Origin: Ascochyta rabiei
Lineage: Eukaryota; Ascomycota; Dothideomycetes; Pleosporales; Didymellaceae
Direction of reading: 5' to 3'
NCBI RefSeq assembly: GCF_004011695.2
Contig: NC_082412.1
Location: 186,001-250,000 of the forward strand
DNA length: 64,000 nucleotides
Shown here: piece after piece, positions 49,075 through 55,068 of the stretch
How the letters are laid out: every line of letters begins with the position of its first letter
Numbering within the stretch: position 1 is the stretch's first letter
The notes under the pieces: model-generated
Databases searched by the model: none
The model's input: only the letters and a program-made list of their open reading frames with translations
What the model was told of the DNA's origin: nothing
Position numbers and translations under genes: made by a program

Positions 49075-50584
49075 GATGGCTGCAGACCTGCCCGCGGCTT
49101 CCTTGGTCGCGTTCGCGCTCGCGTATGCACTGTGATTGCGCAGTGCGGTGGGGCAGCCCGGCGGTGATCTCGAGTATGCAATGCGGTGTGCAATCGGCCG
49201 AGTATCGAGGTCAACGCACGGGTGGGGGAGGGCAGCAGGACCCAAGCAAAGCAAGGAATGCTGGTCGTCGCAAGAGCTGCAATTAAAGAGAGAAATTGCG
49301 CCGGCCACGCTCGAAGCACTCCCACGGTGTGGATGGGTGGTCGCGTCAACAAATGCGTTGTTGGCAAGACGCAAGGCCGACGTGATGCAATGTTGAAGAT
49401 GGCGGCAGTCGGCCTGTGATCAATCAGTGGCTCGCGCGTTTATTTTTGGCTGGAGCGGTTGTTGATCGCCGTTGCCGTGGCAATCAGCCGCCCATCAACA
49501 CGAAAGTTCCGTTTCATCCACATTATCTCCGCACCACTCGCGGAGGACACAGCGTTCAACAGAGAAAAAACTTGGTTGTACTGCAGGGATGCACGTCGTG
49601 TAGCGTACCATGGCTTAGCTGGGTTGAAGGGCAGAGGTCTTGAGGACACTGTTTTGGGTCATCGTGAACAAGCTGGTGTCCTTCAAGTCTGCCCACCTGT
49701 GATGAGCCACCCCCGAGACTGTACCGCATTGTCAATTGCCATGCCCACGCAGCATCGAGAAGACGCCAGTCTCGCGTGTACCGTTCGCATCGGCATGATC
49801 TCCCGATCGTCCTTTGTCTGTGCCTCTTCTGCCGCTCCGCCTTCACGCACCAACCACTCAGCTGACAAGCGCCCCGCTGCATCTGTGCCTGCTCCTCACG
49901 TTCGCAGTGACAAAGTGGGGGAGCCTAATGGCGTTTCCCAGCAACCATCGCGACCTTGCTTCCGTTGACCTTAGAGACTCGACAACTTGGGTGCTAGCTT
50001 AGCCCGTCTTGCCGCGAGCTGCATGCACTGTGAGATACAGCGGAACTTGAAAGCATCTTCCTCTTTCCGTTGAGTCAATGCAAGGTTCTAACCAAATTGG
50101 ATGGCTTGGATACTCGCTCTATCATAGTGTCAGCTCACCATGTTTACTCAACGCCCTGGGCCATCCACTCTACCCCCAGTTAGCCATCAGCAAGTCCAAA
50201 TGCGTCAGACACCGTGTACTTGACTGTAGGAGCCTCGTACTAGATTCCCAACAGACACCGCGTACTTGACTGCGCTGCGAGATATTCGATCAGACCATGA
50301 TTCCCAACAGACGTCGAGTCTTGCGTAACATGATAGCAGCACTTCCAAGCATCAATGGCGACAGAACCGCACGGGATGCATGGCCTTTGAAGTGGTCGGC
50401 TAAGGGCGATCATAGATGCCAAGGCGAGCGTCAAAGTCGGGTAAGGATTGATGATTTAGCGGGGTCAGGGCATCGGCGCCGGCCGAGCTTCATGCGAGGG
50501 CCATTGCACGCAACCCGGGATGGATTGCAATCAAGAATATAATATATAAATGCGTTCTTCCTTTCATCAATCAGATCATCATCT
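49075..50584. other. Intergenic region between ASE1 and the tRNA gene
   Basis: No protein gene recognised on either strand. The last 50 bp contain a TATA element that appears to belong to the tRNA gene. Confidence 0.5.
50543..50550 (+). promoter_or_regulatory. Upstream TATA element of the tRNA gene
   Basis: TATATAAA about 35 bp upstream of the tRNA 5' end, within an AT-only stretch. TATA elements at this distance are common upstream of fungal Pol III genes. Confidence 0.55.
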
Positions 50585-50721
50585 GGCCTAATGGCCCAAT
50601 GGCAAGGCGCTTGACTACGATTCGTTCGGCAATCAAGAGATTCCAGGTTGTAAGTACTGCCCCAATTGTCAGACCCAGCGTTCGAATCCTTACATCGTTC
50701 CAGCGACCCCTGGTTAGGTCA
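50585..50721 (+). tRNA. tRNA-Arg(ACG) with anticodon-loop intron and a 54-nt T-loop insert
   Basis: The cloverleaf is complete when two inserts are removed. Acceptor stem GGCCTAA (50585-50591) pairs with TTAGGTC (50714-50720). The A box is TGGCCCAATGG. The anticodon stem CTTGA/TCAAG encloses loop CTACGA-A, anticodon ACG at 50617-50619. An 11-nt intron (about 50621-50631) sits one base after the anticodon, the canonical position 37/38. The T stem CCAGG (50643-50647) pairs with CCTGG (50709-50713). Its loop should be TTCGACC but is cut after TT by 54 nt (50650-50703) that begin GTAAGT and end CCAG, like an mRNA intron. The insert splits the B box GGTTCGACCCC, yet carries its own B-box-like word GTTCGAATCC (50681-50690). 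Variable loop AGATT and discriminator A are normal. An upstream TATA and a downstream T-run terminator are present. It may be a functional interrupted tRNA or a tRNA pseudogene. Confidence 0.72.
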
Positions 50722-50738
50722 TCACAAAACCAATACCT

Positions 50739-50751
50739 TATTTTTGTTTTT
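50739..50751 (+). terminator. Pol III T-run terminator
   Basis: TTATTTTTGTTTTT begins 18 bp after the tRNA discriminator base. Two runs of five T on the coding strand are sufficient for RNA polymerase III termination. Confidence 0.65.
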
Positions 50752-52928: not shown

Positions 52929-55068
52929 CTATATCTTGACAATATCCACGCGACTCCGCTCCCACAAGCGATGCGCGAGCGCGATACCCCGCTGCCGCTC
53001 TTCGTCGGTGACTTTTGCGGGCTGGACAATGACGCGGGCATATGTGCCTGCAGCGCGGCGCTTGGCGAGGGTGCCTGGGTTGATGACCACGACGGATTCG
53101 ACGACCTGTGCAATTTTATGTTAGCAAGGGCTAAGAAAGGGGTGTGGAGGACGTGCCTTGACGGTGCCTTGCAGCACGCTCGGTGTGATGAGTATGTCTG
53201 GGCGTACGTTCAGCATCTCGCCGAGCTTGAGGTACGATGTGTCGAGTGGTGTGCCAATGGGCAGGAAAGGACTTGGTTCGTCGTCTGCTACGTCTTCGCC
53301 CTCTTCGCCCTTGATGAGCTTCTCTTCCACTTCAACAGGCTTGAGGTACTTCTCTCGGTTCGTCGGCGGGAAGATGGGCAGGAAGCTCCTCTGTTCTAGC
53401 ACGTTTCGAGCCCCACGCTCGTAAAAGTTCGAGCCCTTTGCTTTTCCACCGCTGATCTCTTCTTGCCGCAACATGGATAAGGTGTCCACAGAGCTCATGC
53501 CCACGGTGATCTCGTTCATGCTCAATGTCATGGGGTTCGTGACGCACTGCACCGTCTTGCCGGCCGCACCGAGCCCCAGCTCACGCTTGTTGAACTTGTC
53601 TTGCGGGAAGGCGGCGGCGTGGTGGTGTGCATCGCGCAGACTCGGCACCAGAATGACATTACACGCTTGGTTTCGCGCCACGAAATCCTGTATCGCGCTC
53701 GAGATGTGGTGTCGGAACAGATCGGTCATGGTCGCCTGGTCGGGACTGGCATTTGGTGGCGCGTCGAAGTCGCCAGTGCGTATCTGGGGGTGCTCGGCGT
53801 CTAGGAAGGGACCGAGTAGGATAATGGTGTCGGCATAGGCGGCGGCGGCGTTGTCGAGGAAGGTGTGGAGGGGTGCGAAGTCGAGGTTCTGGTCTGTTGT
53901 GTATGGGCCTGCTGCGATCATCATGGTCAGAGGGCGGGCGTTGTCGGGGTCGGAATCGGGCGTGTCGAGGTAGCGAGTGTTGATTGCGTCGAGCTCTTCC
54001 GGCTTGGTGGCCGGTGGATTGAGAAGCGGGAGTGAGAGGACCTCGGAGGCGACGAAGACGTCGCCCGAGGCGTTTGTGCCGCGTAATGCGACAATCTGTC
54101 CTGGGAAGAAGTTGTAGGAGGGGAGACTGTCAACCTTCACCGGCACACGCCGACCTGAGCCCATGCGCCGTGAGCCTTCGAGAAGGAGTGATGCGGCGTT
54201 GAGTTTCCCCTCGCTTGTGTCGCTTGCTATGCGCCCTACTGCGATGATCTGATTTGGCGATTGCAGGCTTGGGTTCCCAAATGCGCTGTCATCCAGGTCC
54301 ATCGACTCTTGTATCAGCTGGCGGAACTCGTCTATCCTGTCATCGAGGACTTCTGATGCCTCCGACAGCTTCATGGTCATGGTTCGGTACGAGAATTTGG
54401 ACATGTCCGTGTTCGCTTTCAGCTTCATGCGTGGTGCGGTGGGCGCCTCCGAGGGAGGGTCTGGGAGCGCAATGTCGCTGCTCATGAACTGTTCGGTGAT
54501 GTCGTTTGCGTTTGTGCGGGAGGCAAAGTCGAAGGTTCTGAGAACGTCAGCCACAGGCAGCGGATCAAGCATGAAGCACATACGGTCCGCTCGAGGCGTC
54601 GGCTCTTGGAGTCAGGGCGCCAGCAGGTGAGCTCATCAGGTGTGCCTTGTTCGCCCTCCCGTTGGGCGTGTCAAAGTTGTTCTTGCGCTTCACTGCGCTT
54701 CCGTTCGCTCGTGGTGTATTTGGTATCAAACCCTCGATCATATCGTACATGTCTCCACCCCTCGCTCGCGGTGTTGGGCGCTCTCTCTTGATCTCGGTCC
54801 TCTGCTGTGCCTTGCCCCGGCTCTCGCGTTCCAAAGTGTCCTGGATGGTCTTTTTGAAGTCGCGCACGCTCTTCAGCTCCAGCTTGTCGCCCTCTGCGCC
54901 CATCTTGATGCTGTAGGCCTGCCATTTGAAGTCCAGCTCCTCGGCAGAGATCGAGTACAGTCGCAGCATCGACTGCAGTTCTGCGAGCACATCCGTGGGG
55001 AGTGCGTGGTCCTTTGTGTCGCAGTAGCGCTCGAAGCGCTCGGTGAGCTCGGTGGTGCCGTCGTCCAT
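52929..55068 (-). CDS. POL12: DNA polymerase alpha subunit B (Pol12)
   Basis: Exons 55068-54584, 54537-53157 and 53105-52929 sum to 680 aa. The N-terminal helical domain (MDDGTTELTERFERYC to LDFKWQAYSI) is followed by a Ser/Pro/Lys linker with TP sites, an OB-fold region around IIAVGRIASDTSEGKLNAAS, and the inactive calcineurin-like phosphoesterase domain: LTMMIAAGPYTTDQNLDFAP, TIILLGPFLDAEHPQI, ILVPSLRDAHHH and QCVTNPMTLSMNEI. The final exon reads VVESVVVINPGTLAK and then RVIVQPAKV. Pol12 is the regulatory B subunit of the DNA polymerase alpha-primase complex that starts Okazaki fragments. Intron 2 (52 bp) has a GC donor (AAG/GCACGT) with branch TGCTAACA and acceptor CACAG; no GT donor gives as good a protein. 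The SEC14-like gene diverges, with 375 bp between the starts. Confidence 0.93.

Follow-up and report, generated by a model that had tools for sequence, protein, structure and literature searches.

How can a tRNA be produced from a gene whose T loop is split by a stretch that resembles an mRNA intron? The question is raised by a tRNA-Arg(ACG) gene of three exons and two inserts, located at 50585-50721 on the + strand of the Ascochyta rabiei (Pleosporales) window, the window being the whole 64,000-nt stretch of DNA that was analysed. The coordinates given in the first-pass annotation for the gene, for the T-loop insert (50650-50703, GTAAGT...CCAG) and for an 11-nt anticodon-loop intron (50621-50631) proved exact. 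The parts of the gene and its surroundings are:

50536 to 50551, + strand: probable TFIIIB site, a TATA-like A/T stretch upstream of the gene
50585 to 50620, + strand: exon 1, with the acceptor 5′ strand, the D arm containing the A box, and the anticodon ACG; identical in 6/6 copies
50621 to 50631, + strand: canonical tRNA intron at 37/38, 11 nt; 11 nt in five copies and 10 nt in one
50632 to 50649, + strand: exon 2, with the anticodon 3′ strand, the variable loop, the T stem 5′ strand, T54 and T55; identical in 6/6 copies
50650 to 50703, + strand: T-loop insert, a spliceosomal-type intron of 54 nt between T55 and C56, from the split-T-loop pattern and the alignment of copies
50650 to 50656, + strand: 5′ splice site GTAAGTA, invariant in 6/6 copies
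50679 to 50689, + strand: intronic B box CGTTCGAATCC, log-odds 12.7
50689 to 50693, + strand: branch-point-like CTTAC; CTAAC in the other five copies
50701 to 50703, + strand: 3′ splice site CAG; CAG in five copies and TAG in one
50704 to 50721, + strand: exon 3, from C56 onwards, with the T loop, the T stem and acceptor 3′ strands and the discriminator A; identical in 6/6 copies
50741 to 50751, + strand: probable Pol III terminator, two T5 runs; T runs lie 3′ of 6/6 copies

The explanation that best fits these parts, with a probability of roughly 0.85, is that every tRNA-Arg(ACG) gene found in this genome carries a spliceosomal (GU-AG, branch-point) intron in its T loop, and that this intron brings a replacement for the B box it interrupts.

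The need to remove the insert was examined with ARAGORN, which called a tRNA at 0/6 loci when the full genes were supplied and at 6/6 when the insert was taken out. The anticodon was then read as acg in 4/6 copies; the other two were read as Cys(aca) and Ser(act) because the anticodon intron was placed differently in them. Of 1622 segments removed by way of trial from the window copy, 20 left a sequence that was called as a tRNA, and both ends of each segment lay no more than 7 bases from those of the insert. Of these 20, the removal of 50650-50703 alone restores the loop TTCGACC as read from the sequence, and the junction gives a T arm of CCAGG-TTCGACC-CCTGG. The claim made at first pass that a full cloverleaf requires the loss of exactly this segment was thereby borne out. 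RNAfold, given the joined 72 nt, did not return a full cloverleaf as its best structure. The unspliced window copy is no more stable than its shuffles (z 0.37), of which 127/200 were at least as stable. Rfam returned nothing at gathering score for the window and no tRNA at E up to 1 for the six loci, where two sub-gathering matches were to a miRNA family (E 0.0041) and a snoRNA family (E 0.059). The B-box stretch inside the insert was also considered as a T arm in its own right and rejected, as its flanks form no stem.

The search for further copies, proposed in the first-pass annotation, gave six loci (L001 to L006), all with the insert. With the gene as query against the 40.9 Mb, 23-contig assembly, in which the window belongs to contig C8, these were six matches on six contigs, of 136-138 nt and 80-100% identity. 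The insert lies between T55 and C56 in every copy and measures 54-55 nt, and a 10-11 nt intron at 37/38 is present in 6/6. A pattern for a GT-type insert in a split T loop matched exactly those six loci, with 0 matches for the reversed-pattern control; the split T loop pattern also gave 0 matches in each of the viral and prokaryote genome collections. An assembly error at 50650-50703, named at first pass as a risk, was rejected as unlikely since the insert is present at six separate loci. The insert is shared by all tRNA-Arg(ACG) genes found in this genome and is no peculiarity of a single one.

The joined exons (72 bases) are 100% identical in 6/6 copies, and the intron at 37/38 has a mean pairwise identity of 66.8%. 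At 100-300 nt from the genes, the flanks share 37.0% identity upstream and 39.0% downstream, against 36.4% and 37.6% in shuffles. Nearer the genes, 59.3% is shared among copies in the first 110 nt downstream (shuffles 38.3%) and 42.3% in the last 50 nt upstream (shuffles 35.9%, the highest of 12 shuffles reaching 42.5%). The upstream flanks of L001 and L005 match over 26 nt. A common 3′ flank of ~100 nt, with pairwise matches of 72-83% identity, is found in L002, L004, L005 and L006; these copies were therefore duplicated with some of their flank, long enough ago for the flank to diverge. When the 3′ flank of L005 was used as query against the whole genome, it matched itself alone. Membership of a wider repeat family was rejected on this result and on the count of six gene copies in the genome. 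Separately, the 3′ flanks of L002 and L003 have a 496-base stretch in common, starting ~800-1000 nt downstream, at 67% identity.

Conservation within the insert is as in a short fungal intron, with a 5′ splice site, CTAAC, 11 nt and YAG in this order. The 5′ end is GTAAGTA in 6/6 copies and fits GTRNGT, the consensus of the spliceosomal 5′ splice site. A branch-like CTAAC is present in 5/6 copies and CTTAC in 1/6 (the window copy), with 11 nt from the branch A to the end of the insert. The 3′ end is YAG at constant spacing. A core resembling a B box, GTTCRAWTCC, is also kept and overlaps the branch-point-like CTAAC. The block GTTCRAWTCCTWACA, which comprises the B box and the branch point, has a mean identity of 90.7% in the six copies. 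The 23-24 nt preceding it have 58.0%, and the 6 nt between it and the YAG have 31.1% at constant length. The gene anatomy, the six copies and this pattern of conservation are direct observations.

The length of the insert was said at first pass to match the introns of neighbouring protein genes, and this holds: 54-55 nt compares with 45, 46, 51 and 54 nt for four protein-gene introns in the window, which have CTRAC branch sites. Two of these belong to the gene for DNA polymerase alpha subunit B (GTATGT...GCTGAC...CAG, 46 nt; GCACGT...GCTAAC...CAG, 51 nt) and are proven, since the gene without them translates exactly to the A. rabiei protein. The other two, of 45 and 54 nt with GCTGAC, were read by eye in a neighbouring gene. 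The 51-nt intron (GCACGT...CAG; 53106-53156, minus strand, exact translation) is of the GC-AG type. With both strands counted, the window has three stretches of the form GTAAGT...CTNAC...YAG at 45-65 nt; one is the insert, and the two others may be real introns.

Some features of the gene count against the spliceosomal reading. Upstream of the 5′ splice site of the insert, the exon ends in GTT, a mismatch to the usual CAG, although the invariant GTAAGT may make up for the poor pairing of GTT with U1. Exon 3 has just 18 nt. The window copy is the sole carrier of CTTAC, and its 5′ splice site can pair fully with that site. At 50649-50694 of the window, TGTAAG at the 5′ splice site can form pairs with CTTACA at the branch site over 6/6 bases; in the other five copies the corresponding potential is 5/6.

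The alternative that survives best, although improbable, is that the insert is an ectopic tRNA intron cut by the tRNA splicing endonuclease, under a relaxed bulge-helix-bulge or some other rule, and that its GT-AG look is coincidental. The same six genes do hold an endonuclease-type intron of 10-11 nt at 37/38. Canonical introns of this kind differ from the T-loop insert in position, in lacking a splice consensus and in the enzyme that removes them. In a loose test for the bulge-helix-bulge, the insert gave a central helix of 4/4 pairs in one copy and 3/4 in five, with the same spread at 37/38. In the strict form, it gave 0-2/4 pairs in the central helix in 6/6 copies and 1-3/4 in the inner one, and the canonical control at 37/38 reached 2/4 and 2-4/4. 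The test is weak, since the canonical intron scored hardly better than the T-loop insert. None of the 13 predicted pairs showed covariation in the aligned T-loop region (0/13). The conserved bases are those of the spliceosomal signals and the B box, and that the conserved bases of the insert are splice signals is the main argument for the spliceosome over the endonuclease. Precedents for the endonuclease come from other lineages: the accessible text of the sources describes T-arm tRNA introns in C. merolae and in nucleomorphs (PMC9602550, PMC4090602) and many ectopic introns of Guillardia theta without a defined motif (PMC3978253). The tRNAs of C. merolae and of the Guillardia theta nucleomorph are similar to tRNA-Arg(ACG) of A. 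rabiei in having T-arm introns besides those at 37/38, as far as these portions of the sources go. The introns of C. merolae are described as bulge-helix-bulge in the accessible parts of PMC4090602 and PMC3978253, whereas the insert of A. rabiei conserves spliceosomal signals.

The second half of the explanation concerns the promoter. It had been noted at first pass that the insert holds a B-box-like stretch and breaks the native box, and the scores agree. The interrupted native B box has a log-odds of -10.7, and the intronic boxes of L001 to L006 score 12.7, 12.7, 13.4, 13.4, 9.1 and 9.1. The matrix was built from 31/42 other nuclear tRNAs of the same genome, with the 11/42 outside a simple B-box expression omitted. 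These reference boxes (n=31) score from 13.8 to 19.4 with a median of 18.7, so all six intronic boxes fall below the lowest of them. Among 2000 shuffles of the window insert, five scored at least 9.1 as a B box. The intronic B box and the branch site overlap by one base. An A box, TGGCCCAATGG, was read in the sequence. T runs of five or more start no more than 20 nt downstream in 6/6 copies; for comparison, a T run of four or more occurs within 40 nt in 40/42 other nuclear tRNAs. A TATA-like or A/T-rich stretch lies upstream of 5/6 copies, L003 being the one without a match, and by a similar criterion a TATA-like stretch was found for 34/42 other nuclear tRNAs.

The proposal that the whole family is split depends on whether an unbroken gene exists elsewhere. 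The mature 72-nt tRNA as query against the genome found no locus other than the six split genes, and in each of them the match covered positions 1-54 of 72. A 20-base query for the unsplit 3′ end, allowing up to 3 mismatches, hit exon 3 of all six split genes and one relic, with 0 matches for the reversed control. The relic lies 128 bases downstream of exon 3 of L005, at G000:C5:350182-350201; no tRNA 5′ half was found near it, the best match being 16/36. An unbroken ACG tRNA was also sought with three gapped patterns; these had 0, 3 and 2 matches against 0, 12 and 9 for their controls, and no Arg(ACG) gene was among the matches. ARAGORN found no tRNA in four of these five and a tRNA-Arg(TCG) in the other. 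The Rfam genome search gave 61 matches, 19 of them on C23, which was taken for the mitochondrial contig. No ACG was present among the 42 nuclear tRNAs of that search as read by ARAGORN, the census being partial at 63/1588 candidates scored. Intact Arg(ACG) copies, which the first-pass annotation had named as a threat to its proposal, were thus not encountered in the mature-tRNA, unsplit-3′-end and pattern searches, within a partial census. These results strongly indicate, but do not prove, that this genome has no uninterrupted Arg(ACG) gene. For the spliceosomal reading, the lack of an intact 3′ end weighs more than the weakness of the bulge-helix-bulge test.

The same searches bear on the possibility that the six loci represent pseudogenes or a repeat derived from a tRNA, with translation served by an intact Arg(ACG) gene that was missed. 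The partial census leaves room for such a gene, the six genes as they stand are called by neither ARAGORN nor Rfam, and L002, L004, L005 and L006 were copied with ~100 nt of 3′ flank. Against this, the mature-sequence and unsplit-3′-end queries revealed no intact gene, T runs lie 3′ of 6/6 copies, and the 3′ flank of L005 is unique in the genome, which speaks against a wider repeat. The 72 exon bases are identical in 6/6 copies though flanks and intron middles have diverged, which disfavours pseudogenes. This alternative is very unlikely; rapid decay of the locus, another concern voiced at first pass, is likewise not what the identical exons indicate. Least credible of all is a role of the insert mainly as a promoter insertion with a functional B box, the unspliced RNA itself being a functional tRNA-like regulatory RNA. 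The intronic B box is indeed conserved and substitutes for the broken one. Against this, a T stem with a normal loop needs joined exons, the window copy in its unspliced form is no more stable than shuffles, and the conservation of GTAAGTA, CTWAC and YAG is left without reason.

The origin of the split may have left traces. Decayed, unsplit tRNA-Arg 3′ ends lie ~85-130 nt downstream of L002, L004 and L005, where 17, 21 and 21 of 25 bases match; each of these matches was equalled by 0/200 shuffles. No such relic above chance was found downstream of L001, L003 and L006. At 50675-50689 of the window, the insert contains a T-arm-like CCAGCGTTCGAATCC that is similar to CCAGGTTCGACCCC of the exon, as a copy of the T arm would be. 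The relics and the T-arm-like stretch suggest that the split T arm arose by partial duplication of the 3′ part of the tRNA, the old end having been left behind to decay. Splicing onto the downstream relics was considered and rejected, as the CGACC of the relics has no preceding AG.

Introns of the mRNA type are known in U6 genes of other fungi, and B boxes occur inside U6 introns. The present genome has a comparable case. A U6 gene, L008 (G000:C9:1076009 onwards), contains two inserts of 66 nt (GTATGT...GCAG) and 53 nt (GTGAGT...ACAG). An intron-free U6, L007 (G000:C14:905425-905524), is identical over 98 nt to L008 with its inserts removed and so marks the junctions expected for L008. Together, the two loci indicate that mRNA-type introns occur in Pol III-type genes of this genome. 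Directly past its terminator, L007 has a B-box-like GGTTCGAATCT with a score of 12.7, and L008 has a weak one only (0.2). Like tRNA-Arg(ACG) here, the U6 gene of S. pombe encodes a small RNA, is transcribed by Pol III and has a GT-AG intron with a branch site. It differs in that the host in A. rabiei is a multicopy tRNA family, the intron lies inside the native B box and an endonuclease-type intron is present in addition. Furthermore, U6 is a component of the spliceosome and a tRNA is not.

To our knowledge, no spliceosomal intron has been demonstrated experimentally in a tRNA. No report of one in a nuclear tRNA gene was present among the matches listed in the open-licence literature. A 2026 review describes eukaryotic tRNA splicing as spliceosome-independent in its accessible portion (PMC13149111). 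Non-canonical tRNA introns of eukaryotes are, according to the part of PMC4090602 available, rare outside algae and nucleomorphs, mostly confined to one of many synonymous genes and taken as marks of pseudogenes. Unlike the cases in that portion of the source, the insert of A. rabiei occurs in 6/6 Arg(ACG) genes.

How the gene is transcribed, that the spliceosome removes the insert, in which order the steps occur and whether the cell needs tRNA-Arg(ACG) are all read from the DNA, and the route from gene to tRNA would be as follows. The upstream TATA-like site would mark the Pol III start, and TFIIIC would sit on the A box of exon 1 and, the native B box being split, on the replacement B box within the intron. 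The 54-55 nt intron would next be cut out by the spliceosome via GUAAGU, CUAAC and YAG. The T arm is expected to fold only after this removal; therefore, end trimming, formation of pseudouridine-55 and the action of the tRNA endonuclease on the 37/38 intron probably come afterwards. In C. merolae, the loss of the D and T introns is believed to precede that of the anticodon intron, and a T-arm intron blocks the formation of pseudouridine-55 by cmPus4 (PMC9602550). By analogy, the case of C. merolae suggests the order of steps proposed for tRNA-Arg(ACG) of A. rabiei. The first-pass annotation had considered a spliceosomal-type intron within a tRNA and an insert substituting for the broken B box; both halves of this proposal fit the sequence evidence.

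In eukaryotes, tRNA-Arg(ICG) decodes the codons CGT, CGC and CGA. Of the 47 Arg codons in the gene for DNA polymerase alpha subunit B, 3, 22 and 8, respectively, are of these types (33/47 together). It is likely that the entire nuclear tRNA family decoding CGU, CGC and CGA needs the spliceosome for its maturation and an intron-borne promoter box for its transcription. The translation of arginine codons would then be tied to the spliceosome, with two unrelated splicing machineries acting in turn on one tRNA. Whole gene families of this kind may be missed by tRNA finders, as ARAGORN and Rfam overlooked all six genes here. If the reading is true, a tRNA family without an intact gene would break the separation between tRNA splicing and the spliceosome, and A. 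rabiei would offer a simple natural system in which Pol III transcripts are spliced. The family would, in addition, show how an intron which destroys a promoter box can survive by bringing a replacement box with it.
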